Assembly: GCF_954871325.1 (NCBI RefSeq)
Contig: NC_088775.1
Coordinates: 36,805,561-36,869,560, forward strand
Direction: 5' to 3'
DNA from: Gordionus sp. m RMFG-2023
Lineage: Eukaryota; Nematomorpha; Gordioida; Chordodea; Parachordodidae
DNA length: 64,000 nt
Position numbers and translations under genes: made by a program. The notes below the pieces were generated by a model that saw only the letters and a list, made by a program, of their open reading frames with translations, was not told where the DNA came from and searched no databases. This document shows positions 1,138 to 51,500 of this stretch, piece by piece (within the stretch, counting starts at the first letter, position 1; every line of letters starts with the position of its first letter).

Positions 1138-4036
1138 ATGATACACTGTCCAGCATGCTCTAAAAACATAAAAATCACAAAACCCGGCCTCTTCACCAAA
1201 CACAAAATCAATGGAATTGTTTGTCCTGATTCGTGAAAGCGTCCTTCTCCTCTCTTCCTAAATCCCCTTTTCATTTTTTCTACTCACAGCCATTCTTCCA
1301 CCTCATCCAATAACGCCTACATACCAACCACATTAGACACATTTATTCCCCTCCAACCTACCACTCATGGCCACATCATCAACTTCCTAAAATCCGACAA
1401 ACCTTTTATTATCTCTTGAATTCCTAAAGGTTCCAGAGTACAAGTAGCCAAAGCCCTCTCCACTTGCCTTCAATCATTATTAAATAACTTCTCCTCTCTC
1501 GATTGGCTCAATCTCTTCACATTTTCCTTCACGACTCTCCAACCTCCCAATCCAGAGATTCAAAAATCTTTAACCCAACAAATCAAAGACACAACTATAC
1601 ATCCCCTCACCCTTACAACCACAATATCTTCTCATGAACCCAAAAAACTTTTTAGCCTACAATTAAAGGCAAAGTTAATTTCCAACAAAATTAAAAACTT
1701 AAACATCAAATCCGCTCTTCGCTTACTAGCATCTGATGATTCATTTGTTACTAGTAACGAAGAAAGTTTCAACAAACTCAAATTAAAGCACACCTCCGGA
1801 GTTGATTTCATATCTCCCCCTCCCAATATTCTTTCTACTGATTTCACCCCCGCCGAGGTGCGTAAATCTTTTCTATCCTTCCATCACGACTCTTCTCCCG
1901 GTTACGATGGACTTCGTCCCATCTTCCTCCAGGGTCTTACATCCCCCCTCATAGTCAGCCAGGTCCCAATTTTACAAAATTTAACAACACTTTGTAATAA
2001 AATAGCACACGGACTCGTCCCTGAGTCCATCAGATCACTCTTATTCGGTGCTAAACTAATCGCACTCGAAAAACTCAATAAGGATATCCGCCCAATAGTA
2101 ATTGGGACCTTATTCCACCGTCTTGTCGCAAAACTAATATCTTCCAAAATTAAGGACAACGCAGCCTTAATTTTAGCACCTCACCAACTAGGTATCATCC
2201 AAGGTGGCTGCGAAATAGCCACACACTCTACTCGTATCCATCTCCAAACCAACCCAAGTAATGAAATCCTCGTTAAAATTGATTTCTCTAATGCCTTCAA
2301 CTCCATTCGCCGCTCTCACTTTCTCCCACAAATGTACCACTCATTCCCCACCTTTTCTCAATTCTTCCATTTCTGCTATTCCATGCCATCTCATCTCCAA
2401 TTCAACAACTATTAATTTCATCATCAGAAGGGATCCAACAAGGCGATCCTCTGGGTTCAATACTTTTCTGCATTGGAATCAACGAAATGGTCAAAAACAT
2501 TTCTTCCAACTGCAATCTTCCACTGCACACTTGGTACATTGACGACGGAATACTCTGCGGTCCCCCTAACGAGGTTGCTAAGGCACTCGCCATCATCAAA
2601 ACGCATTCCCATGCTATCGGACTCTCACTCAACGAACAAAAAACCGAGATCTGCCCACTTCATTGCTTCATCCCATTCACCCACAACTTCCACACAACCG
2701 AACTCTCATCCCTCAGTCATCTCGGCTCTCCAGTCGGTGGTCTGGAATCCATCAATTACTTTTTCACTAACGCATCATCAACTTCCACACAACCGAACTC
2801 TCATCCCTCAGTCATCTCGGCTCTCCAGTCGGTGGTCTGGAATCCATCAATTACTTTTTCACTAACGCATCATCCAGCTTACTTCATTTCAAAAACATTT
2901 CTAAGTTTCTCCCTCCTCATCAAGCTTTTTTTTCTCCTCAAAAACTTTTACTACATTCCTAAAATTCTTTATGCCCTTCGATCCACCTCAATTTTCAAAT
3001 TCCCTGACTCATTAAAATCATTTGAAATCTCCGTCAAATCTCTTGCTGAAGAGATCCTTAATCTCCGCTTTAAACATAATTCATGGTTACAAGCATCACT
3101 TCCATGCAAGCTCGGGGGTATCGGCTAACGCTCACCTCTATCTCACCATCAGTGATTTCATCGTCTTTCATCTGACTCACACATTAGCCAGCTTTCTAAT
3201 TTCCCTGACCCCTTATTAGCTGAAGCCCAGACCATTTGGGACAATTCCGTTGTCCCAAATACTCACGACCCTCCTCATGTTCACAGAGAGACTGGGATAT
3301 TCCACACAACGAAGGCTCCGTCCCTTACCTAAAATCGATCCTTCACGACGACGACGATCTCACAGTTTTTCACCAATTGAACCAAGGAGCCGGTTACAAG
3401 TTTGTGGAAACCATACCCTCCAACAACCTTGATTTGTTGCTCTCCGCTGACGAGCTAAGATTTGCTATTGGACTACGGTTCAATTGATTGTTCTTCCGTA
3501 TCAATGCAAACATTGCAAAACAAACCAGTGTCAACATAAAGGGTAGACATTGTCTTCATTGTCGCTTTTGACGTGGCCGTTTTTCACAGCACACCTTATG
3601 CAACGACATCATACTACGCGCCCTCAAATCATGAGGCATTCCATCTAGACATGAACCAACCGGAATTTTTAGAACAGATGGAAAACGTTTTGATGGAATG
3701 TCCTTGATTCCTTGGTCAAGGGGTCAGCTCCTGGTTTGGGACTTCACCTGCATTGACCCAAATGCACCATCTAACCATAACGTTGATGCCCTCGCCCTCG
3801 TAGAATCTCGAAAAACTATAAAGTACAGTTTATTAGACCCTTCTTTCTTATTCATATCCATCGCCTGCTCCATTCTCATCACCTTCGGTAGCAAAGCTCA
3901 ACGTTTTTTCAAAGAATTAGGCAAACGGATTTGCGAAAAAACCGATCAGCCTAAGGAATCCCTCTTCTTACGCCAAAGACTTGCTACCGCCATTATTCGC
4001 TCTAACTATCAAAGTTTCATATCTTCCATTGAATAA
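1138..4036 (+). pseudogene. Non-LTR retrotransposon polyprotein (zinc finger, RT, restriction-like endonuclease), decayed
   Basis: This is one LINE-type polyprotein in broken frames. It opens at ATG 1138 with a C2H2-like finger (CPAC...H...C). An IPKG motif follows near 1423, and a frame stays open from about 1421 to 2415 covering the early RT blocks (SPGYDGLRP, KIDFSNAFNSI). RT continues with QQGDPLG near 2427, the catalytic YIDDG near 2536, and LGSPVGG. A Cys/His cluster near 3500 precedes the C-terminal RTDGKRFDG...LVWDFTCID near 3680-3760. The last motif resembles a PD-(D/E)XK endonuclease, although the usual Pro of RPDG is Phe here. I know this architecture as a widespread metazoan RT family with zinc finger and RLE-like nuclease; its exact clade name is not certain. 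Breaks include a TGA replacing an Arg codon just before IPKG, a one-base loss near 2413, a 95-bp duplication, and stops between 3125 and 3690. The copy is not functional. Confidence 0.85.
2685..2874 (+). repeat. 95-bp tandem duplication inside the RT domain
   Basis: Bases 2685-2779 and 2780-2874 are near-identical copies starting 'aacttccacacaaccg'. The unit of 95 shifts the frame. A run of eight T at about 2926-2933, where the family sequence expects seven, restores it, so the reading frame 2487-3128 stays open across both changes (95+1=96). Confidence 0.9.
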
Positions 4037-10429: not shown

Positions 10430-11259
10430 TAATTCACTGGGGAAACACACAATTAAGTGGCTTATCCACCCAAAAGGGGCATATCCAGTGTAGTGAATTT
10501 GCATCCACTGTTTGGCAGTAAAATTTACCCTACTGTCAAGGCCCATTTAATTAAAGAAAAAATGATCTGATTCAATAATTGACAATAATTTACCCTACTG
10601 TCAGGGCCCGACAGTAATTTACATCGGTAAGAATAGAGAAATAAGAAAATATATAATTAATAAATAGTGTGCTTATCTTTTTAGAGTATTTGTTTCAGTA
10701 GATTAATGAATTTTTGAATGATTATATGAATCCATAATTGTAACAAAATATTTGATAATAAATCTAGAAATAAAATTAATGAATGATTATAAAAAAAATT
10801 AATTAGTTTCTGTGAAAATTAATGTGGTGTATCATTGCATCTAATCATTAATAGTTTATCATATTAAAAACACACAATTAAGTTGCGTCCACAACCCAAA
10901 AGGGGGCATAACCAGTGCAGTGAATTTGCATCCACTGTTTGGCAGTAAAATTTACCCTACTGTCAGGGCCCATTTAATTTAATTAAGAAGATGATGGTAC
11001 CTGATCCACTAATTGACAATATATCCTACTGTCAGGGCTCGATAGTAATTTACATAGATTATTGGTAAGAATAGAGAAAGATTAAATGCAATGATATTCA
11101 AAAATTCACTAATCTATTGAAACAAATACTCTAAAAAGATAAACTATTTATTAATTATATATTTTCTTATTTCTCTATTCTTATCAATAATCTATGTAAA
11201 TTACTGTCGGGCCCTGACATTAGTGTAAATTCTGTCAATTACTGGATTAGGTATTATCA

Positions 11260-13525
11260 GGGTCAATTCCATATCAAATCAATCACTTTACAACACAAAC
11301 ATCTCAGATTTTGCTGAAATTTGGTATATAAGTTAATGAAGTGTTGTAATTGCCCCTTAACTCTACAAGAACCGGAGATATAGGGTCTCAAAGTAGCTCT
11401 GCGAGGTTATTTTTCGAAATAAATGATTTTTTAAAATCGGGATAACTTTAATATTAAATATAGTATATTTATCTATCATGGCTCATTTTATATCCCTAAG
11501 TAAACTCTTCCATATATTTTAAATGTTAATAATTTAATTTATAAATTTTTTTAAATCGCGGTCAAAAATTTGTAATTAATTTTTTTAAATGTTAGTATAA
11601 ATTTTTTTTTCCAATTTTCAGATATTTTGTAAAGAGTATCAAGAATTATTCATATAAAAATTTTCAAAGTGGTAAAAAAAGAATTAAGTAAAAGAAATCC
11701 AAAAAATAAAAAAACAGCTAGATGGCGTTAATAATTTTAAATAGCTTAAGATTTTATTTTTGAAAATATAAGTCAATCTACCTTTTATTTATATCCTATA
11801 ATATAATATTTGTTGAATAAAATCGCATTTTGGCACAAAAATAAAATTTCCGCTAGATAGCGCAAGTATTCTAAAATAAATAAATATGATTTAAATTAAT
11901 TATCTATATTACAAAATTAATAATTCATTGAATCATATAAGTTATGTTGCTATATCCGATTCGTTGGAACATAATACGTGTTTATTTCAAAAAAAATTAA
12001 TAAACTTTCTAAAAAATTATTTTTTATCAGAGCCTAAATACATTTATTATTATTCCGATGGGTCCGCGGCCCAATATAAAAACAGGAAAAATTTCATAAA
12101 CTTGTGTTAACATAAGGTAGACTTCGCTATCTCAGCAGAATGGCATTTCTTTGCTACTGCGCATGGGAAAATTGCCTGCGATGGAATAGGAGGAACTGTG
12201 AAACGCATGGCTGCACGGGCTAGTTTACAACGACCTTATGAAAATCAAATAAAATCTTGCGATTTCTTCAAATTCGCTGAGGAAAATATAAAAAATATTC
12301 ATTTTTCTTATACATCCCATGAAGAATATCAAGAGGAAGAATTTATAAAAGATCGGTTTTTCAAAAGCTCTTTTCAACCTGGAACTCAAAAAATTCATTC
12401 AGTTTATCCTGTTAGCTTATCACAAATAATTACGAAAAAATATTCCTGTGCTATTCAAAACAGAAAATATTCAAAATCGAATAGGCGAGGTATCAACCAA
12501 TGATATAAAAGGGTATGCATGCTTTTATGATAATGAAGGGTGGGTAGCTTATATACTAGCCATTATTAGTCCTGAGGAGGTAAAGGTTATATTTTTACAC
12601 CCTAATGGAACATCTAATTCCTTTTACTATCGATCGATAATAAGATATTCTTATTCGTCCGAAAAGTGATATTCTAACTGTTGTCAATCTTTTGACCACT
12701 ACAGGAAGAACTTTATAATCTAACTCGTGAAGAATTCGAAATGGCTGTAAACAAATTAAATTTACGGATATCAATATAACCAAGCTTCTATACTATAATT
12801 AATTTTACTATGAATTAAATTAATAAAATATTATAGAATAAATAAAAATATCTACTGACATATTTCACAAAAATGAGGTTTTTACCTATTTTAGAATACT
12901 TGCTCTATCTAGCGGAAATTTTATTTTTGTGCCAAAATGCGATTTTATTCAGCAAATATTATATTATAGGATATAAATAAAAGGTAGATTGACTTATATT
13001 TTCAAAAATTAAATTTTAAGCTATTTAAAATTATTAACGCCATTTAGCTGTTTTTTTATTTTTTGGATTTTTTCTATTTAATTCTTTTTTTACCACTCTG
13101 AAAATTTTTATATGAACAGTTCTTGATACTCTTTACAAAATATCTGAAAATTGGAAAAAAAAATTTATACTAACATTTAAAAAAATTAATTACAAATTTT
13201 TGACCGCAATTTAAAAAAAATTTATAAATTAAAAATTAATCCCATTTAAAATATGTGGAAGAGTTTACTTAGGGCTATAAAATGAGCCATGATAGATAAA
13301 TATACTACATTTAATATTAAAGTTATCCTAATTTTAAAAAATCATTTTTTTCCAAAAATGACCTCGCAGAGCTACTTTGAGACCCTATATCTCCGGTTGT
13401 AGTAGAGTTAAGGGGCTAATATTTTGGATTCGTCAATTACAACACTTCATTAACTTATATAAAAAATTTCAGCAAAATCGGAGATGGTCGACTTGTAAAG
13501 TGATTGATTTGATATGGAATGACCC
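11260..13525 (+). mobile_element. Long-TIR DNA transposon of a possibly undescribed family, copy 1 (internally deleted)
   Basis: Inverted repeats of about 630 bp run 11260-11890 and 12893-13525, with outer ends GGGTCAATTCCATATCAAAT and its inverse. The sequence atca flanks the element at 11256-11259 and 13526-13529. A paralogous unoccupied copy near 13931-13950 reads 'aggtactattatccttc' where the joined flanks read 'aggtattatcatccttc', so the duplication is exactly 4 bp. The interior (about 11920-12775) encodes the C-terminal half of the family protein only. Relatives are at 34576-41350 and 44861-47540. The Sola superfamily also uses 4-bp duplications and is the first family to compare. Confidence 0.85.
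11916..12777 (+). pseudogene. Putative transposase of the long-TIR family, C-terminal half
   Basis: Three adjacent frames give one protein. The first (about 11920-12107) reads ISDSLEHN...YYYSDGSAAQYKNRKNFIN. The second (about 12120-12490) has AEWHFFATAHGKIACDG followed by IGGTVKRMAARASLQRP and ends in a basic region. The third (12448-12669) holds YACFYDNEGWVAYIL...FLHPNG, and a last piece near 12700 reads TTTGRT. I recognise this order from uncharacterised proteins repeated in many invertebrate genomes. Conserved acidic residues in SDG and CDG, plus the family's upstream acidic residues, would suit an RNase-H-fold DDE nuclease; that is inference. Interruptions are a stop near 12108 and frame changes near 12480 and 12670. 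The N-terminal half is absent, so the copy cannot be autonomous. Confidence 0.7.
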
Positions 13526-14160
13526 ATCATCCTTCTTTAATTAAATGGGCTCTGACAGTAGGGTAAATTTTACTGCCAAACAGTGGATGCAAATTCACTG
13601 CACTGGATATACCCCCTTTTGGGTGGTGGAAGCAACTTAATTGTGTGTTTTTAATATGATAAACTATTAATGATTAGATGCAATGATACACCACATTAAT
13701 TTTCACAGAATAACTAATTAATTTTTTTTATAATCATTCATTAATTTTATTTATAGATTTACCATGAAATATTTTGTTACAATTATGGATTCATATAATC
13801 ATTCAAAAATTCTAATATATTGAGACGAATAATCTAAAAAGATAAGCACACTATTTATTAATTATATATTTTTTTATTTTTCCATGTAAATTACTGTCGG
13901 GCCCTGACAGTATGGTAAATTACTGTTAATTAGAATCAGGTACTATTATCCTTCTTTAATTAAATGGGCCTTGACAGTAGTGTAAATTTTACTGCCAAAC
14001 AGTGGATGCAAATTCACTGCACTGGATATACCCCCTTTTGGGTGGTGGAAGCCATTTAAATGTGTGTTTTTAATATGGTAAATATTAATGATTAAATGAT
14101 GATACACCACATTAATTTTCACAGAATAACTAATTAAATTTTTATATTAAATATTAACAG

Positions 14161-33915: not shown

Positions 33916-34575
33916 TTATCTTATTATTACCACTTCAGAGATGTGTCGATATAACATTTTAGCCGATACGATGTATTGGTTAATACCTGTGGCATTGATA
34001 CTTATATATTGTATGTCTTATATGAAATTTTGGATTTCTCATTAAATGTAAAAACCACTATCAATTTTTTTTTTATATGAATTTAATTCTATTCTTATTG
34101 ATATTTCGCCTTCATTTTTTTGTGGTAGTTTTACCCCAGTTCGCATCAATGTATTCGCCTACTTATTACTTGATGTTAGTTTAATTTGCGTCATTTTTGT
34201 TAAATTTCGCAGTTCTGGCTGCAGTATTCCTATAGATATCAAAGGAAGACAGATACTGTCGAACGTGTAAAGGCCGAATCCTCAGAAACAACCAAGCAAT
34301 TTGTTGATTTACTGAGTCTTAAAATCTGCCCAAATACCGGCCATACTTGAACCATCTTGACTTTTTAGACCCGATGATATCACTCTGATCCCAGGAGAAG
34401 CCTATTTCTCGTTTGAAACTATTCCTCCATTGATCCGTTGTCATAAAAAGAATACTTAAAATTGGCAAATATTCTGAAATTTGCAAAGATTACGTTTTCA
34501 TACCAATTATATTCACTATCTTAATATACTTCGGTATACTTTTTATCCGCCTTAAAAATTTGCGATCTCACATCT
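33916..34575. other. AT-rich stretch without recognised features
   Basis: A GC-richer block at 34200-34440 ('ctggctgcagtattcc', 'cgaatcctcagaaac') has no convincing open frame. Nothing else is recognised. Confidence 0.3.
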
Positions 34576-35289
34576 GGGCCATTCCACGTCAAATCGCACG
34601 ATTCGGCCGAACTCTTTTAAAATTGTTGAAAATTTCTCGAATTATTTATCATCTCAAAAATTATTTATAGTAAAAGAAAATATAATATATCAAATTGTAG
34701 GTACATAAATCTCTAAAGGGCTATCAAAATAAAATAAAGATTGGCTCCAATTTGGGTCTTTAACTTCCGATTTACCTATATTGCTTTACCTGTATTTTTA
34801 AGCAAAAAAGGGAGTTTGTTTTCAAATTTTTTTTTGCTTTTTTTTAGACACCTTTTATAAATATATATTATATGTCAAAACCTTGGCGACGCTATCGACT
34901 CTCCCGTTAACAAAAATTGAAAAAAAATAGATGACGCTTTACTAAATTATAGATTATGCTTAGAATTTGGTTGCTAACTGACCAATAACAGGATATTTTT
35001 ACTTTTTATACCGAACAATTTCAAATTTCTATTAAATATACTAATTAAACTGAGGGGCAGTGTGGGCTAATCCCCATTAGACACTTAATAATGTAACAAA
35101 TTTACAATTATAAATATCTTTGGTACAATTTTTATTAATAATATAGAAATATAGATGGATAATCCTATTCATTCCATAATTTAAAATATATTTGAAACAA
35201 AATTTAGTTAAATATAAATAATTATACATTTTAAGAAAATAAATTAAAAAGATGAATAGTTTTAATTGTCTCATCCTTATGTAAAGTAT

Positions 35290-38200
35290 ATATTCTTTCG
35301 ATAGCAGTTGAAGGACTGACTATCTAAAATTTGCGATTTATGTATCCACAATTTGTCAATTAAGGATGGATTTGTATAAGAATTTGAGGGTCTTGAGGAT
35401 GCAAAAAACTAACTAACACCTCTTTTTCGATTGTTTTCTCTAAAACATAGACTCACCATTGATTGTCATAGATATATGTTAAATATATCCATTTTTTCAT
35501 ATAGTAAATTCGCATAAATATTCGAGTGAAATGTTATATTTAATATTTGTGATTCTATTGAGTTTGAATAAAATTTTGCTTCAATTTTATCCTAAGAAAT
35601 TGGTTGAAAAGTATGCGTTCCTGTTATTGTACGCGCTTTATTGAATCTCTCATTTTCTCTTTCTCATATTTGTCTTCCATAATATAGGAGAAATCTATTC
35701 CTTAATAAAACAAATTATAATATATGTTAATAAATTTTAAATCTTATACCTTTAATATTTTCCTTACATTTGCCAAAAAACTCTTTAGGACAAATGATTT
35801 GTTCTGAAACAGGTCTTTGTAAAGTAGCCCTGGCCAATAAACGTTTGACTGTACCTCCGACCCCGTAACAAGCTGATTTATCATGAGATGTGGCCCAGAA
35901 ATGCCACTTACTTTTATCCCATTAAAATTAATTCTTACTTGAATCTTTTAACTATTTTTTATTATAGAAACAAAATCCCTTTTCCCAAGCATCGATCTAC
36001 TATATTCATCATTGCTATGAAAAGTTTTGACAATAGCAACGCTGGCGGCATCTATTGTCTTACCGGGTTTAGGATTTGGTGTTGAGAAAAACCCTATTTC
36101 TTTTATTAAACCTGAACGCCATATGATATGAAATATTAAATTCTTTACAATTTTTCTTACTGTCAAATTTGATGGTAATAATGTTAAATCTATATTTATT
36201 TGTAATCCACGAATGTAGTCTCCCCTTTACCAAATTTATTAAAATGATTTTCTAACTCTTTAAACTGTTGGTATGAACATTCTTACAAAATAAAAATACT
36301 ATTATGATTTAAAAATAAAGATGTTTTTTGAGGTTATAGCTACTAGATTTATTTGAGAATATATTTTTTCTACATTTTAAACAAATAAATTTGTATCCAC
36401 CTTTTTTTAAACATTAATTTGAAAATGGAAGATTTGTATTATTGTTATCAAGAACATTTTCTTCCAGGGTACTTTTAACCATTAAGATTATCATTGTCTG
36501 ACTCAATTACATCGATTTCGATATCCATTTGCTATGAAATTTTAAATAATCTACAGCACCAGATGATTTAGGTTTATAATACAAAATATAATATCAGCTA
36601 TCCAACTTCTGTTCTTTTAAAAGTTAATAAGTTATTAAGCTCAAAATATATATTAATCAGTTAAAAACACGTAAAATAACATTATATTCACTCTAACCTA
36701 ATACCATATTCTTATAAATTATTTCAATCAAATAAATTTGATATTCTAAATTACACAATCACCAAATTGATTACAAACTCGAATGTTACTTTGTCATCCT
36801 TGAGGCATATTATACTGCTCTATTGCATATGGGTGTTCAAGTATACACACTCTGGTTCTACTCACCATCAGTATTCCTCACTCTCCATCACAAATCCCAT
36901 TATACAATAATGCTGTTATTAATGATATTAATCAATTACCCCATTATGAAACCATCTTTGCAATTAAAGCTTTCATATCCTGATCTCATATAAAAAACTC
37001 ATTTGAGAATAGAATATTAAAATTGTGCCTATTTGATATTGGATTGGCAATATAATAACTATTGATAGAATTATTCGATATAAAGAGTTTTAAATTTATT
37101 AGTAAATGGACTATATGATTGATGGTCACTCAACAACATAAATTTCATCATATTCTACTTATATGAATATTAATTTACAGAAGAATACATACAATTAGCC
37201 AATAATCACAATTGTGACAATCTGGTAAAAATTTTCAATTCATGAGCCTACCAGACCTCAGCACAGCACCTATATTAAATATAACTGCCCACTGAGTAAT
37301 AAACTTATAAAAATAAACAAATTGGGGCTATTGTCATCTCATCGAAACCAGAAAATTAAGTGTCCTCAATCTGGAATACTGATCTTATCACCAGCAATTC
37401 ATCGAACTCTTAATGCATTTTCTGCCCTTGCCCTCACAACTAAACAACCCATAGTCAACATTCCTACCACATTGGCTGATGTGCTTACTAGCCCAACAGT
37501 TCCTGTATCCACTGGCACAAATGTTTCCACGTTTGATCCAGCTGACTCCACAGATGTAGAAATATTTTTAGTGACACCAAAGATATTTCTCTTTCACGAA
37601 TACCTAAGGGAGCAAGGCTTCAAGTTGCGAGGCACCTGTCGAAAATTTGACTTCCTTTTTTATTTATTATTCTTATGTAAAACACTGGCTGGATACCCTG
37701 TCATTTGCCTTTACTACCTTGCAAGTTCCTGATCCCGCCAGCAAAAAATCTCTCACATAACAAATTAAGGATGCAACTATCTACCCCTTACCCATTAATC
37801 ACATTTCCACATTTTTAAGGGTAATGACACAGATAAAAATAAGAATCACAAAAATGACCTGACCAAAGCCAGGTTAATATCTAAAAAACTGGAGAACCTA
37901 AATCCGTCATACACCTGGCAACCTCTGACAATAAGCTGGCTCCCTACGATCAAGCAACTTATCAAGCTCTTCTCCTAAAACTACTTACAGGATCTTAATG
38001 ACGAAGCACCGTCTTACCCTGGAACTCCTCTAATTGTAGCCACTTATACCACAAGCGACGTTAAGAAGACTATTATCTCCTAATACTAGACTTAGGCTAT
38101 TTTGCTCCCAATTATAACGTTGACACTAAAAGGAAACTTAGATCTCAATCAATAAATGACAGCAAAAATTAATGACTATATATTTGTGGTTTACTAATAT

Positions 38201-38773
38201 TATACTTTTTTCCCGATAATTGTGAAAATTATAACTTATTTCGTAATTTTGTAATCATTTTTGACTTTATACTAAGCTTTTCTATTAATTGAATATTTAA
38301 TTAACTAATTTATTTGAATAAATTTTTTTTGTGGAAATTTTCATAATTCTTTAATTTTACAATAAAAACAGAGTATTTTTAATTTTAATATTTTAGTCGT
38401 TAAAACTTTTTTTTACTCTAGATATATATTTTTTAATATTTTTTTTCATAAGCGTCTCCCATTGATTGTAGAGATATATTAATGTTATCAATTACCCTAT
38501 GAAATCAATATCTACATTGTCATTTGAAGTATAAGGAATGTTTGCTAATTTTTGTCGACATGAAGAACATAATAACATATCTAAATTGATTGGTAAATTT
38601 TTTTGGGTTATCCAGGGTGGAATCTTTCTTAGATTCTTGCGATAATAAACATGTCTTTGTAGATTAAATGGGTTGCAACATTTTGATATTTTAACATTTG
38701 GTTCGTCCACCTGTGATATAGTATAAAATTTTAATTGATCTGCACCTAGAATATACGTTTTTGCACTCTCCAA
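35290..38773 (-). pseudogene. Putative transposase of the long-TIR family, with N-terminal Cys-rich and HTH parts
   Basis: Pieces in order on the minus strand: 38773-38492, open, with KCCNPFNLQRH...WITQKNL...LCSSCRQKL, a paired-Cys domain; an acidic stretch near 36520; 36290-35945 with SNLTVRKIVK, then IGFFSTPNPKPGKTID, EYSRSMLGKRDFVSI, an HTH-like region; 35905-35700 with WHFWATSHDKSACYGVGGTV then KRLLARATLQRP; and about 35680-35540 with ARTITGTHTFQPIS. These match the same uncharacterised family as 11916-12777 and supply the N-terminal half missing there. The residue equivalent to Asp in CDG is Tyr here. Frame changes separate the pieces, and a LINE fragment interrupts the gene. Confidence 0.68.
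37270..38090 (+). pseudogene. 5' fragment of the zinc-finger/RLE LINE, second copy
   Basis: NCPLSNKLIKI then GLLSSHRNQKIKCPQS aligns with the finger of the element at 1138 (CPAC...GLFTKHKINGIVCPDS), with the second Cys now Ser. An open stretch 37322-37730 follows. In the overlapping frame, SLSRIPKGARLQVARHLSKI near 37595 matches the IPKG block. ATSDNKLAPYDQATYQALLL near 37920 matches the ASDD block, and IVATYTTSDVKKTIIS near 38035 follows. RT domains are absent. Stops and shifts show it is dead. It lies antisense inside the long-TIR transposon's gene. Confidence 0.72.
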
Positions 38774-38924
38774 ATCCTGAAAGGCATACGAAAAAATAAT
38801 AATGATTATTTAAAATTAATCTGAATGGGCAAGTTAAAAATATTATGCAGAAAGAGAGATCGTTTTAAACAGTTTATTTTGTAAAATATATGCTAGTAAA
38901 ATATACCTAATAAAATATTCATTA

Positions 38925-40742
38925 CATTGTTGTGATGATTTAATGAAACATATTGACGATTAAATTAAAACCCATCCATATATAAGTATTTTGCTTAGAA
39001 TAATACATTTGAAATATATAAAAAAAATTTAAAATATTTTTTCTTTAAAATTAATTTTTATCTATAAACTGGAAGACTTTGAATGAGTTAAGATAAAAAA
39101 TTTTATGGGTAAAACTTAAGGTCAAATTATGATAATTTTTACCTAATTTCTTCATTGTTTATTTTATTTTCTATCAAATTTGCCTTTCTTATATTATAGT
39201 TTCGAAAATAACTTGTGAAATCTTTATAATGTATATTTATTTTATTTACATATTAAAGTTCAAAAAATATTTATTTTTCTATTTGCATTGCACATAATAT
39301 AACGAAAAAATATATCTATATTATATAATAATCTAGTGTAATAATTTATTAAATTAATTGTTCAAAGGAATAGATCGGATTCCCTCTTCGATATATCGTA
39401 TCGTATGTGAGTAGAAGACTGAGAAATCAGCCTCAATTATATGAATTCTGTTATTTGGTTTTGGATATATAGAGCGATACTGATTTTCCAAAACTCCAAA
39501 AAAATTTTCAATGGGGTTTAATTGCGGGGAATAGGGTGGAAGATATGCTATATTTTGATAATTTTCTGTTATTATATGAGCTCGGTGAATGGGCGCATTA
39601 TCCATAATTATTAGTGAATTCAACGGTAAATTTAATTCATCCAGGTAAGTTTTGAATTTTATTGATGTAAATGCCCCGTCTATAATCATGTATTTTTTAA
39701 GACCATTAATTCCTATGGTACACAAAACCGATACGTTTTTCCCCGTTGAAGGAGAGAGTTTGACGGATGGCCTCTTACGCAGAGGTGCCCATCCATAGTG
39801 GGAAATGACATGGGAATTGAAGCCTGTATTATCTAAATAGAATATATTTTGAAATGGCACGTTCATCATTTTTAGGCAATATTCTTTACGAATATTTATA
39901 ACATCTGGGAAATTCCGTCTATCGGGTTTTTTTCCAACCCTTTTCCTGCTCCACCCTATTGATTTAATGCATCTAGATATTCCCGAATCACTTATTTTGA
40001 GATGAGGTGGTAAATTTTCCACTATATTTTTTATCGTCAATCCATTATTATGTTCTAGTAGCTGTATAATTTTAGATTTCAATTCTGAATCATCATTTTT
40101 GTTCCTTCCTCTTTGATTGATTATGTAATCGGTCAAGGGGTCATCGTAGTATTCGGGGAATGTAATCCTTTTGAAACGGTATACCGAAATAATGGATGAA
40201 TTGAGATCTGGGCCATTGTCTTTATGCTTGCCTGTTCAAATTTAGGTTTACTAAGCCATTTTTTGGCTATGACTATTTTTTCTTGACTCCATTTGCCATA
40301 TTTCTTTTGTGGTTCATGATAGGTATCAGAGTTTGTTGTATGTTTGATTAGGTAAAGAATTATTTGTTATGTCAAATAAAGCGTGAAATATTTTGAGAAT
40401 AAGTTGATTCTTTCTGTGAGGAAAAATCTAAAAAATTATATATAATGTTAAATATTGAAAATCTGTAGATGTAGAAAAGTCTAAGATACGGGAGATAATG
40501 AAATTATAATAAATAAGTTAGGAAAAGTTTTTAAAAATAATTTATAAGTTTTAAAAAAAATTTTAAAGAAAAAAGAATTGCTTTTAATTTTTTATATGTA
40601 AATAAATGTGTTATTTTAATTATTTCTGCAAACAAAATACTTATATATGTGTTATTTTAATTATTTCTGCAAACAAAATACTTATATATGGATGGGTTTT
40701 AATTTAATCCTCAATATGTTTCATTAAATCATCACAACACTG
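38925..40742 (-). mobile_element. Tc1/mariner-like transposon
   Basis: Inverted repeats of about 65-70 bp run 38925-38990 and 40675-40742, with ends CATTGTTGTGATGATTTAA and its inverse ending CACAACACTG. A TA precedes the left end (38923-38924); the right flank is GA, a likely mutated TA. A 39-bp tandem duplication lies inside the right part (about 40608-40687). The element encodes one long transposase frame on the minus strand. Confidence 0.88.
39354..40136 (-). CDS. Tc1/mariner-family transposase (DDE), largely open
   Basis: This is a 260-residue open frame, the longest in the window. It has an HTH-like N-terminal half (TIKNIVENLPPHLKISDSGI, KSIGWSRKRVGKKPDRRN). The catalytic triad is YLDNTGFNSH, LIIMDNAPIH and LPPYSPQLNPIENFFG. 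Thirty residues separate the second Asp and the Glu, shorter than the usual 34 of Tc1 types, suggesting either a small deletion or a distinct subgroup. Without an internal stop, the frame extends upstream of the first ATG for roughly 100 bases (RFKRITFPEYYDDPLTDY), so the true start may be further 5' or in an upstream exon. Location inside paired terminal repeats supports a recent, possibly still competent copy; activity is not shown. Confidence 0.85.
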   Translation of the reverse strand: MTDYIINQRGRNKNDDSELKSKIIQLLEHNNGLTIKNIVENLPPHLKISDSGISRCIKSIGWSRKRVGKKPDRRNFPDVINIRKEYCLKMMNVPFQNIFYLDNTGFNSHVISHYGWAPLRKRPSVKLSPSTGKNVSVLCTIGINGLKKYMIIDGAFTSIKFKTYLDELNLPLNSLIIMDNAPIHRAHIITENYQNIAYLPPYSPQLNPIENFFGVLENQYRSIYPKPNNRIHIIEADFSVFYSHTIRYIEEGIRSIPLNN

Positions 40743-41350
40743 GAGGGCTAATAAGTCATTCGATATAGTAGTAAAGTAAAAATCTAAAAAATTTAAAACT
40801 TTTTAAGGATGGTGGGGGGGGGGAGAGGAGGCAGAAATAGGAAATTTTATCACATTTCTTATAAACGTATCAATATTTTAATTTTCCGAATAATATTTTT
40901 CAACCAATAGTGCCATCTATTTTTTTTCAATTTTTAGAATGTATATTTCGGAAAAATCGATAGTCGCCAAGGTTTTAACATTGTATGTATATTTATAAAA
41001 GGTTTCTAAACAAAAAGAAAAAAAAATTTCAAAAACAAATTCCTTTTTTGATTAAAAACACAGGTAAAACAATATAGGTAAATCGAATGTTAAGGTGCCA
41101 ATTTTTATCCTTTTTTGATAGCCCTTTAGAGATTTTCTTTACTACAATATGATATGTTATATATTTTTGTACTATAAATAGTTGATATACATATTAAAAA
41201 TTTTACAGATTCCAAAGTTGTTCTTTTTTGCACCTATGAGCCCCTATCAGGTGTGCTAGCGAGTTAAAATAAACGGCTTTCATTTTTTGACCTATCTAAA
41301 TAATTCCAGAAAATTTTAACAATTTTAAAACGGGTCGGCCGAAAACTTGC

Positions 41351-42500: not shown

Positions 42501-45500
42501 CTTATTATGTTTTTTAAAGAGAGCAATTAATAACCTTATCAGCCAGATTATAAAATAAAATATTCTTTCTCCTTTGAATATAAAAAACTAATCTTAATTT
42601 GGCGGATAAGATATATAAAAATTATTACTTATTCATAATGAATTCCGGCCTTAGACAGGGACCGAGCTTTTTTGAGGACTTTTTACGGTCCTTTTATATA
42701 TATTATATTATTTTTTTTAGAAAAGTTATTTTAATTTTTGTTGAATTTTTAGTTCATTTGTATTTGGCAATAAGAAAACAGTAAGTTTGTTAAACTAAAA
42801 AAAGCCATATGAAAATATTTTTGAGCCCCTGCAATTGTAAAAGCTAATGTTGCCCCTGGTCAAAGATGCATTGTACTTATAGTCCCAAAAAAACAGAGTA
42901 TATGTTCAATGTAGTATCAAATTTAATGTATCAAGGGCAACAATTAACAAAATAATTGTTTATAATTTTATTGAGTAATAAATTAATATCAAAATAAGCA
43001 GTATTTTTATAATCCAGATGTATGATGGATTTTTTGGTTCTATTCTAGGTTCGTCATAAGTCTATTTTTAAGTTAGGGTTTAAAAAAAATTAGAAACTTC
43101 CCAATAAAAAGAAATTAATTAATAAATTACAAAAATTCTAAATACCTACCGAATGATTTTTCATAATTGATTTTATATTGTTAACATAATACTAATTTTT
43201 ATGAATGAAGGTTTTAATTTAAAAACGGTTACAATTTATAGTAAAAGATATAAGTTATTAAAAATAATACTTAAAAAACATACTATTATATTTAAAATTA
43301 TAAAACAAGAATTAAATTAGGTAAAAACAAAATATTTTTAATAGCAAAAAATAAAGACCGGTCTTTTTATTTAGAATCACGGTCTGGATTGATCTTTTTT
43401 CAAGGACATTTATTAGATTTTAAATTTTAATTACCGATTTCGCGATACCGTTTTTTGCTGAGACTTTTATATGTTAAATCGCTTATATGCTCGGAATACG
43501 ACTTTTTGACGATTTGCAGAATGTGGGTGTCTATAGGGACTGCGCGAGTTTTGTTAAGAGACATCAAACATATGCAATCTGCCACCTCAATATAGAATAA
43601 AGATAATTATTTGAATTTGATATTAAAAAAATATATAAGTTGAGCTCGATTGGCTAAGAACTAATAAATCAATTTTTAATTTGAGTAATGAGTTGATCCA
43701 CTTTCATAATTTTATGCCTATTATGATAAACCTTGGGCCCTATTCCTGGGATAAGCATGAGTTCTTTATGTGCAGTTTCATAAGTAGCCATGTGTCTTAA
43801 ATTTTCCAGCCAATGATAGTGCTCCATTCCCGTACCCATATCAGATTTGCGTGTCTCGGCTAAATAAAGAAATTTAATTTATACTTTCATATCTTATTAT
43901 TTTAAAAATAATATTATTTATAGTTAATATAAAAATTTTGCTAACTCCAAAGAATAATTATTAAATGGCGGTAACAAATCTTTATATTTCTTTCTCATTG
44001 TAATAAAATTTTTTTTATCTAAATAAAAAGATTTTCTATTATACCAGCAAATGTACAGCACAAATTATGCAAGTAATCCATAGAAATAAAAATGGAAATT
44101 ATGTAATTTAAATATTTATTAAAACAATTGGGAAAACGAGAATAATTTTGTATAAAATTAATATGCATGTTTTTTCTTAAATAATTTTTTGCTTGATTTA
44201 ATTTAAATAAAATATATCGAATTTTCAAATTTATATAAATTCATAATTTTTGTTAACTAATACCCCATTGCATTTGTTTGTTCTCAATGAATTTTGCTGC
44301 TTCGTGAACATATTTAGCTCTATAACCAAATCCCAATCGAGCCAAGTTAGAATGAACGTCTTCTCGCGAAAGTCGGTCCAGTGTTGGAAAAGAATAATAT
44401 GTTTGATTTTCTAGGTCCCCCAACTAAATATCGTTCATAGGAGTTATAATATAGGAAATTTTGCAATTATTGGCACATTCAATTAGTGATTTGCTAAAAA
44501 GTAAAAAACTACATGATTTATAATAATAAATCATATTAAAAAATGTATTTTTTTGCAGTAAGTCGGGCATGTATTTATTGTACAATATCTAAAAGCAATA
44601 TTTTTTATAATATTGAGGCTAAAAATTCCATAAGTTTTTTTATCGCCTTTATATTTATTTTAAAAAAGCGAATGAAACTGGGAATAATTTTTTAGATGGT
44701 GTATTACATAATAACTGATGATTTACATATAATTTTTCATTGTGTAAGTGAAAATATCGTATGATAAAAATTTTAAACGTTAAAATATGCATGTCTTAAA
44801 AATCTATTATATTTAAATAATCCTAGAAAGAACCTGAGATCTCCAATTGTTCTATATATAGGGTCATTCCATGTCAAATCAATCACTTTTCGGCTTCGAT
44901 AAAAAAATGTAGGCTGATTATATGTTCACATATTATCATAAACAAAATTTTAGCGAATTAGCTATATTAGCGGAGATAACCGGGGTTAAAAATCTAAATT
45001 TTGCTTTTTACTGATCTAAATATGATCAAATATTGAATCTAATATCAATAGCTAAGTCAATAATGGATAATTATGGCGAAAACATCATAATTAATTTTTT
45101 TTAAATATGGGTCATCTTATGGTCAGTCGAAAATTTGAAATTAATATTTCGAAATGAATATGATCAAATTGTCCAAAGAAATCGGTATAAATATTGGTTG
45201 TTAATTTTTTTTGATATTATTAAATTTTTTATTGATATTATACATTTAGTAAATAAAATTGATATTATTGTAAAAAAAATATGAAGAAATAATCAATATG
45301 ACTAACATTCTAAATGACTTCTATTTAATCATACATTTTTTTATACTAATAAATAATAAATTGTAGCTGTATTAGATACGCACCGAATTGTCGCCGCGCT
45401 GAATTGACGTTGCGCCGAATTGACGTGGAACCGTTTAAAAAATTTTATATAAAAAACTTTAAAACGGAACATGTGATATGAGTTTCATTTTTTCTAACGT

Positions 45501-48500: not shown

Positions 48501-51500
48501 GCAAACTGGTAAAAATATTTATTGTAAAAACATGTTAAGATAAAATTTCAGTGAAGATGCACTATAGAAAAGTGACAATTGTCATAATATTCATTTTTAA
48601 ACTTTTTTTAAAGCAAACTGGTAAATATATATTGTAAACATGTTTTAAAATATCAATGAAGATACCACAGAAAAGTGACAATTGTCAAATATTTATTTTT
48701 CAACTTTTTTGAATTTTTTTAAAGTAAATAAGTAAAAATATATATTGTAAAGATGTTAAAATAAAATTTCAGTGAAGATGTACCATAGAAAAGTGACAAT
48801 TGTCATAATCGTTATTTTTGAACTTTTTTGAACTATTTTAAAGCAAACTGGTAAAAATATTTATTGTAAATATGTTAAGTTAAAATTTCAGTGAAGATGC
48901 ACCATAGAAAAGTGACAATTGTCATAATATTTATTTTTAAACTTTTTTCAATTTTTTTCAAAGCAAACTGGTAAATATATATTGTAAACATGTTAAATTA
49001 AAATTTCAGTGAAGATACCGCAGAAAAGTGACAATTGTCATAATCGTTATTTTTGAACTTTTTCAGAGACCTGCAGAGGTACCATTTGCACGGCACGGCC
49101 CGGTTTTAAATTTTTTAAGCCCGGCCCGGATATTTTTTAAAAAAAATTTTTATGGCCCGGCCCGGATTTAAAAATTTAAGGCCCGGCCCGGATATTTTTA
49201 AAAAAAATTTTTTACGGCCCGGCCCGGCCCGGATTTTAAAATTTCAGGCCCGGCCCGGATATTTTTTAAAAAATTCAGGCCCAGCTTGGAATTTTTTAAA
49301 ATTATATTCGACCTGGTATATACAAAAAATTCACCTATGAGGTATTTTATCATATTTTTCAGCGAGTATTATCGCTTATTATATAAAAAATGCATGTAAA
49401 AAGCTAATATTTTGAGAATATTATATTGAATTTATAAAAATTATAAAACTGTTATTTATAAAAATGGATATTTTGAGCATATACTATATTTTATATTGCA
49501 TTTATAAAAATAAAACTAATATTCATAAAAATGGTAATAATATTTGTCATATACTATATTTTATATTACATTTAAAAAAAATAAAACTAATATTTAATTT
49601 ATAAAAATGGAAAATATTTTGAGAATATAATATATTGTATTTAATTTACTATTTAATTTATAAAATAAAAATAAATCGCTATTTAAAAAAATGCATGTAT
49701 AATAAATAGTATTTTGAAAATATAATCTAATTGCACAATATTAATATAATTTATTTTATAATATAAATTTTTAACAAAAGAAGATAATTGTATTATATAA
49801 TATTGTAAAAAAAAATAATGAAAAATGTTGGATTAAAAACTTTCATGACTCAAGGTAAATATAATAAATGCAATAAATATTTGACAGTTTGCAAAGTAAA
49901 AAACCAGCATGATTGACGAAACCCTATACTCAAGAATGATATTAAATATTCACAAATTATCATGAAGAAAGAGAAGCATATCTACCTTTTCAGGTTGAAG
50001 ATTACTTCTTCTTTCTTCAAGAATTCTCCCAGTAGTGGGAAAATTCCGCTCACAGCTTGCACTTAAAGCAGGAATTGCCAATTTTGCTAAAATTGGAAAT
50101 TCGCTTTGATGAGCCGCCCACCACTCTAACAAATTATCCACCTTAAATGTTTTATCTATTATTTATGTAATTATAATATTCATCATCGGGTATTGACATA
50201 TTTCCAGAATTACCATCGCCCCATTTATCATAAAACGATTCAGTTTGTTTAACAACAGTCGTAATTTGACTGGTCGATGGTATTTCATTTACTTCCTGAG
50301 CCTCTTGTAATTTAATATAATCTTTTATATAGTTTTCCGTCATTTTGCGATCTGTCCACTACATACGTAATTGCTTGAATCAGAGAAAAAGAGAAATAAA
50401 ATGATACTTGTGTAAAACAAATTTTTCAATTAAAAAATGCTTTATATTAAGTAAAATCAATTACAAACTTTAAGAAGTGATAATTCTTTATTTGATTGTT
50501 TTGGTAAATTATATTCTAAAAATTTAGATATGAATTATAAAAAAATATATTAATAATACTTGAATATTGGGGCTTATTTAAGATATTCCTTTATTTGATT
50601 GTTTTGGTAAAATATGTTGTAAAAATTTAGATATGAATTATAAAAAAATATATTAATACTTTGAATAAATTTGCAGGAAATTAATAATTAGATCGATCTG
50701 TGGGTTGTTAGGTAGTGTTAACCATCACCCAATATTATATAAATCATAACTATAATATAATATAATCTTATAACCATTAACTCATAATGTAAAAATTTTT
50801 ATAAAAAATATTAAGGCCCGGCCCGGGTTTAACAATCTTAAGCCCGGCCCGGCCGGGGTTTAACAATCTTAAGCCCGGCCCGGATATATTTTAAAAAAAA
50901 TTTTTTAGGCCCGGCCCGGATATGTTTAAAAAATTTTTTTTAGGCCCGGCCCTGCAGGTCTCTGACTTTTTTAAAGCAAATTGGTAAAAATTTTTATTGT
51001 AAACATGTTAAGTTAAAATTTCAGTGAAGATGAACCATAGAAAAGTGACAATTGTCATAATCGTTATTTTTAAACTTTTTGAATTTTTTTAAAGCAAACT
51101 GGTAAAAATGTGATGTAAACGACAATTGTCATAATCGTTATTTTTCAACTTTTTTGAATTTTTTCAAAGCAAATAGGTAAAAATATTTATTGTAAACATG
51201 TTAAGTTAAAATTTTAATGAGGATGTACCATAAAAAATGATAATTGTCATAGTCGTTATTTATTATATTTTTTTGCCCAAATGATCTGAATTTTAACCCA
51301 CGCCCCCCTTCTATCTAATTGGGCGGGCTAGCTAAATAATTTAAAAAGTACTAACGGACCTTTGAAAAATTTTAACAATGGGCTGGCCAACAAACAACTT
51401 ACTTTTATTTGTTATTTAAAATATATTAGGCATTAAATAATATATGCTTCATAAATTTTTTTTATAAATATCAGATTATCGATAACTGTTGTGGATGTTA

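Follow-up and report, generated by a model that had tools for sequence, protein, structure and literature searches.

Among described DNA transposons, the closest counterparts to the elements considered here are the Sola elements, which in the available part of PMC10741241 have a DDD transposase, a 4-bp target-site duplication (TSD), a length of mostly 2–9 kb and terminal inverted repeats (TIRs) of 11–1124 bp; an AWWT target is reported for dictyostelid Sola2 elements in the accessible part of PMC3627910. We compare with them a transposon family of the nematomorph Gordionus sp. m RMFG-2023, starting from a short element at positions 11260–13525 of the window (the whole stretch of 64,000 nucleotides analysed, contig NC_088775.1, positions 36,805,561 to 36,869,560). 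A sequence-only reading of this window had proposed that an uncharacterised protein encoded there is the transposase of a TIR family, a proposal borne out by the predicted fold, the catalytic triad, the association with TIRs and the 4-bp TSDs. We conclude that the family very probably supplies the transposase of autonomous DNA transposons that move by cut and paste, have long TIRs and make 4-bp TSDs.

The window element and its surroundings comprise the following features:

10443..14082, older repeat complex (CACACAATTAAGT... arms) that received the window element (repeat scan, empty-site alignment)
11256..11259, left TSD, ATCA (flank comparison; related empty site at 13881-14028)
11260..11884, plus strand, left TIR, starting GGGTCA(A)TTCCATATCAAATCAATCACTTTA, 91.3% identical to the right arm
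11904..12636, plus strand, transposase remnant, family residues ~476-741, interrupted near 12108 (stop) and near 12450-12500 (frame change)
12881..13525, minus strand, right TIR (repeat scan and arm alignment)
13526..13529, right TSD, ATCA (flank comparison)
13881..14028, plus strand, host-repeat relative without the element; the joined flanks align straight through, with one target-site copy (here ATTA)

The paired TIRs and 4-bp duplication noted earlier hold up at this 2.3-kb element, whose TIRs (about 625–645 bp) are 91.3% identical over 646 columns and whose ATCA duplication is exact on both sides. When the flanks are joined with a single ATCA, they match 13881–14028 at 90% over 150 columns, an alignment that we read as the state before insertion, and two more host-repeat relatives match the joined flanks at 88%. 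Empty sites are also found for two other elements, that of L010 lying inside an L027-type element, with a match of 99% across 160 bases, and that of L027 in the same window at 50478–50640 (96%). What is left of the gene in the window element matches the family at 43–54% identity in two stretches (residues ~476–741), keeping the aspartates of SDG (D529) and CDG (D570) without D445, and no match remains for family residues before ~476. Because these residues are missing and the remainder contains an in-frame stop and a frame change, the window copy is, on its sequence, a dead and shortened relic unable to encode a working enzyme, which must have moved at an earlier time or by means of enzyme supplied in trans. 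Of the elements fetched, L019 and L021 come closest to it, at about 79.5% identity across 2049 aligned columns, and both exceed it in length by about 1.3 kb. Within 10443–14082 the element is surrounded by copies of another repeat, direct as well as inverted (CACACAATTAAGT... and a block containing CACTGTTTGGCAGTAAAATTTACCCTACTGTC).

In the 287-Mb host genome, the 130-aa window fragment yielded at least 150 scored matches (of 1428 candidates), and the 150 proteins considered below are those closest to this fragment. Some family frames are open over 735–767 aa (maximum 767 aa), in elements of 4–5 kb. Inverted arms of at least 440 columns surround the frame in 17 of 20 fetched loci, a TIR count that is biased since the loci were chosen for long open frames, and the 14 elements measured are 3.6–4.9 kb long, with TIRs of about 570–860 bp. 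All frames of at least 250 aa inside set element ends belong to the transposase family, and the motif-less frames of L021, L023, L024, L026 and L027 correspond to its other regions. Alignments longer than 800 columns place the six subfamilies (types L009, L015, L017, L019, L027 and L028) at 63.6–68.2% identity to one another, and 13 of 18 same-subfamily pairs reach 97.9–99.3% identity end to end, the five involving L011 lying at 94.5–94.8%. This near-identity within subfamilies points to recent movement, and the host genome holds nearly identical full-length elements suited to tests of the mechanism.

Target-site duplications were assessed in 16 elements with ends set, leaving aside, of the 20 fetched loci, L012, L022, L023, L025 and L026, in which one or both ends are missing, rearranged or unclear. 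A 4-base match between the flanks is present in 12 of the 16 and a 5-base match in none; mispaired flanks, used as a control, match over 4 bases in 4 of 240 cases. The 12 duplications are ATCA, CTGC, ATTT, TTTT, CATA, TTTG, ATAT, ATAT, ACAA, TGCA, TACT and ATAG. As a separate observation, L023:3778-9923 contains two family copies head to head, whose arms are 99.1% identical across 2732 columns and which are flanked on both sides by TTATA, five bases and not four; this pair is possibly a product of aberrant transposition or recombination.

We then related the gene to the element ends. The motif GGGTNATTCCATRNCAAAT occurs 787 times in the genome (reversed control, 0), and association counts are confined to C1:1-32.34 Mb, the region covered by the first 100 of these places. 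Of 22 protein matches there, 11 are accompanied, at a distance of up to 5 kb, by an exact motif in the correct orientation on each side and 7 by one on a single side, against 0.19% (both sides) and 1.2% (any side) of random positions. Genome-wide, one of two longer exact subfamily ends lies within 5 kb of 44 of the 150 proteins (random positions, 0.2%). In the host genome the family is accordingly multicopy and mostly beside element ends, and not, as had been allowed for at the outset, a set of single-copy genes outside TIRs. The same region contains 21 adjacent convergent motif pairs, 11 of which enclose a protein among the matches listed. The other 10 pairs, which span 2.5–3.6 kb and enclose none of the proteins listed, may represent non-autonomous elements or more diverged transposases.

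The protein itself has a predicted RNase H/integrase core in the AlphaFold model of a relative (pLDDT 86.7), the one predicted structure behind the fold assignment. In this model D445 (DFSENY), D529 (SDG) and D570 (CDG) are placed as a DDD triad, with the three aspartates where they are expected and no sign of an unrelated fold, and each is conserved in at least 100 of 101 proteins. The family is therefore a predicted DDD transposase with an RNase H-like fold, and the earlier suggestion that the aspartates of SDG and CDG belong to an active site agrees with their being the second and third residues of the predicted triad. Solved retroviral integrases, Mos1 and IstA show 7–16% identity among the matches listed; they also differ from this family in their end sequences and in the length of their TSDs. 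A Foldseek comparison with viral models yielded no decisive match. One search returned at least 893 relatives of the family, among them Cc8L18.2-like or uncharacterised proteins of Bemisia tabaci, Brassicogethes aeneus and Pycnogonum litorale, which belong to the same family (47–49% identity over 95–100% of the query) and carry no transposase label, one JGI relative (P0135) being labelled transposase. Most relatives in the rows listed are, where named, filed as uncharacterised; recognition of the family as a transposase allows such genes to be distinguished from host genes. Scans for prokaryotic and viral relatives gave 34 and 77 pattern matches, respectively, none of which was confirmed at the sensitivity used.

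From these features we infer how the chemistry, end recognition and intermediates might run. The N-terminal Cys-rich region and a helical domain would bind the ends, at the end motif GGGTNATTCCATNNCAAAT and, in many elements, also at an inner block TCGGCCGACC. Excision would then fall to the RNase H core (D445, D529, D570), which would also insert the element into a target without fixed sequence that is cut with a 4-bp stagger, and repair of the staggered cuts would leave the 4-bp duplication.

Several observations weigh against assigning the family to a transposon in this way. No length-4 match is found in L011, L013, L020 and L024. In L020 the left end had been counted at a weak motif (2115), and the arm in fact starts near 2612 with a shortened motif, at which the flanks read ATAA/ATAA; this correction, which would bring the total to 13 of 16, was made after the count. 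Moreover, 4 of the 22 protein matches in C1:1-32.34 Mb lack an exact end motif in the 5 kb on either side. The fold is based on a single predicted structure, for which the best Foldseek E value was only 0.003, and the top Foldseek rows were Argonaute/PIWI proteins, which are themselves RNase H folds.

As to its place among known groups, the family likely belongs to the Sola superfamily: the DDD triad, the 4-bp TSD, the length of 3.6–4.9 kb and the TIRs of about 570–860 bp all lie within the ranges given in the accessible part of the published account. However, the likeness is one of features and not of compared transposase sequences, and the AWWT pattern, described for dictyostelid Sola2 elements and not known to define the whole group, fits only 3 of the 12 TSDs. 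Because the comparison with Sola was by features, we file the family as a DDD cut-and-paste transposon that is probably Sola, not as a proven member. It is less likely, though conceivable, that the family forms a separate DDD superfamily with 4-bp TSDs, as yet without a name in Pfam or the searched literature. This would be in keeping with the lack of a convincing match in Pfam and NCBIfam scans of family members, of a relative in a PDB sequence search and of a match in a literature text search for cc8L18.2/cc8K15.2; a literature search with the terminal sequences returned unrelated titles among the matches listed, and the Sola literature, as searched, does not name the family. Against such a separate superfamily, the features match Sola, and Repbase/Dfam may already contain the family. 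It is highly improbable that elements moved by another transposase merely carry the protein, as a passenger or as a gene captured from the host: although the window copy seems to be mobile despite being unable to encode an enzyme, every frame of at least 250 aa inside set ends is of the family (the five motif-less ones included), six subfamilies only 63.6–68.2% alike all carry the protein, and it has a predicted transposase-like core and triad.

Other groups are set apart by their targets. Kolobok elements target TTAA. The same target is given for piggyBac in the accessible part of its description, and neither group fits, as none of the 12 exact TSDs is TTAA. Mutator-like elements, with TSDs of 7–12 bp, and Tc1/mariner elements, with a 2-bp TA duplication (both as given in the available part of PMC10741241), are likewise at odds with the 4-bp TSD, as is membership of the P elements (8 bp in the part of PMC7776569 available).

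The window contains further traces of the family, listed below:

34577..34938, minus strand, arm of copy 2, with end motif GGGCCATTCCACGTCAAATC starting at 34577
35234..35912, minus strand, C-terminal coding remnant of copy 2 (~555-784), with CYG in place of CDG
35933..36211, minus strand, coding remnant of copy 2 (~160-256)
38504..38683, minus strand, N-terminal Cys-rich coding remnant of copy 2 (~10-69)
~40909..41343, minus strand, other arm of copy 2, decayed, terminal motif lost
44861..45165, plus strand, third remnant, comprising the end plus inner TIR of an element of the L015/L016 type (76% identical to L016 across 361 columns)

Copy 2 spans about 34577–41343 on the minus strand, is older and larger than the window element, and has its coding sequence in three pieces and arms about 76% alike over 317 columns. 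The sequence-only reading had described two elements between repeats starting with the same motif; both copies are real, but copy 2 retains the motif at one end only, and the limits proposed for it (35290–38773) were too small. A repeat scan limited to 34000–40000 found no arm pair, the second arm lying beyond that stretch, and the TSD of copy 2 is unreadable, the terminal motif of its right arm being lost. A DDE_3 (Tc1/mariner/IS630-like) transposase gene is nested in copy 2 at 39354–40235 on the minus strand (Pfam E 2.4e-22). A tblastn search with the family gave no transposase match near the third remnant. At 1420–3128 (plus strand), two overlapping open frames match RVT_1 reverse transcriptase and represent a broken retroelement.

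Finally, many elements have bipartite ends. A second block, TCGGCCGACC or a variant, follows the end motif at both ends in five of the six subfamilies, and in L028 it was read at one end only, where a scan for the block did not pick it up. The joint pattern of end motif and inner block occurs 325 times in the genome (control, 0). In the 100 of 325 places listed, the spacers measure 10 (45 places), 11 (14), 20 (36), 19 (2) and 18, 21 and 8 bp (1 each), spacers of 12–17 being absent, and the 21 convergent pairs among them comprise 19 short with long, one long-long and one short-short. The binomial value for this pairing (5e-5) cannot be taken as a probability because the copies are not independent. 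L009-type elements have spacers of 10 and 19/20 with the short end upstream of the gene (L011 excepted), L015-type elements 20 and 10 with the long end upstream, L017-type elements 11 upstream and 20 downstream, and L019- and L027-type elements 10 at both ends. Relative to the gene, the long and short ends of L011:1585-6524 lie the other way round from those of the other L009-type copies, and no matching TSD is present; this element may be rearranged, possibly by inversion through its TIRs. It is tempting to speculate that a 10/11-bp end pairs with a 19/20-bp end, a difference of about one helical turn, and that two subfamilies dropped this rule, although we consider it doubtful. Common descent of copies in a few element lineages could yield the same pattern without function, and for this reason the rule is put forward as a hypothesis only.

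Were it to hold, the 10/20 spacing would provide a separate system in which to test why certain DDE/D recombinases require two unlike ends. P element ends have spacers of 9 and 21 bp, which the available part of PMC7776569 likens to the 12/23 signals of V(D)J recombination; in many elements of the present family one short-spacer end is likewise joined by one long-spacer end. The P element, however, makes an 8-bp TSD (in the same part of that source) as against 4 bp here, and two of the six subfamilies here (L019 and L027 types) have two short ends. On this doubtful reading, a similar pairing of unlike ends would be used by a DDD family with 4-bp TSDs that is presumably unrelated to V(D)J recombination and the P element.
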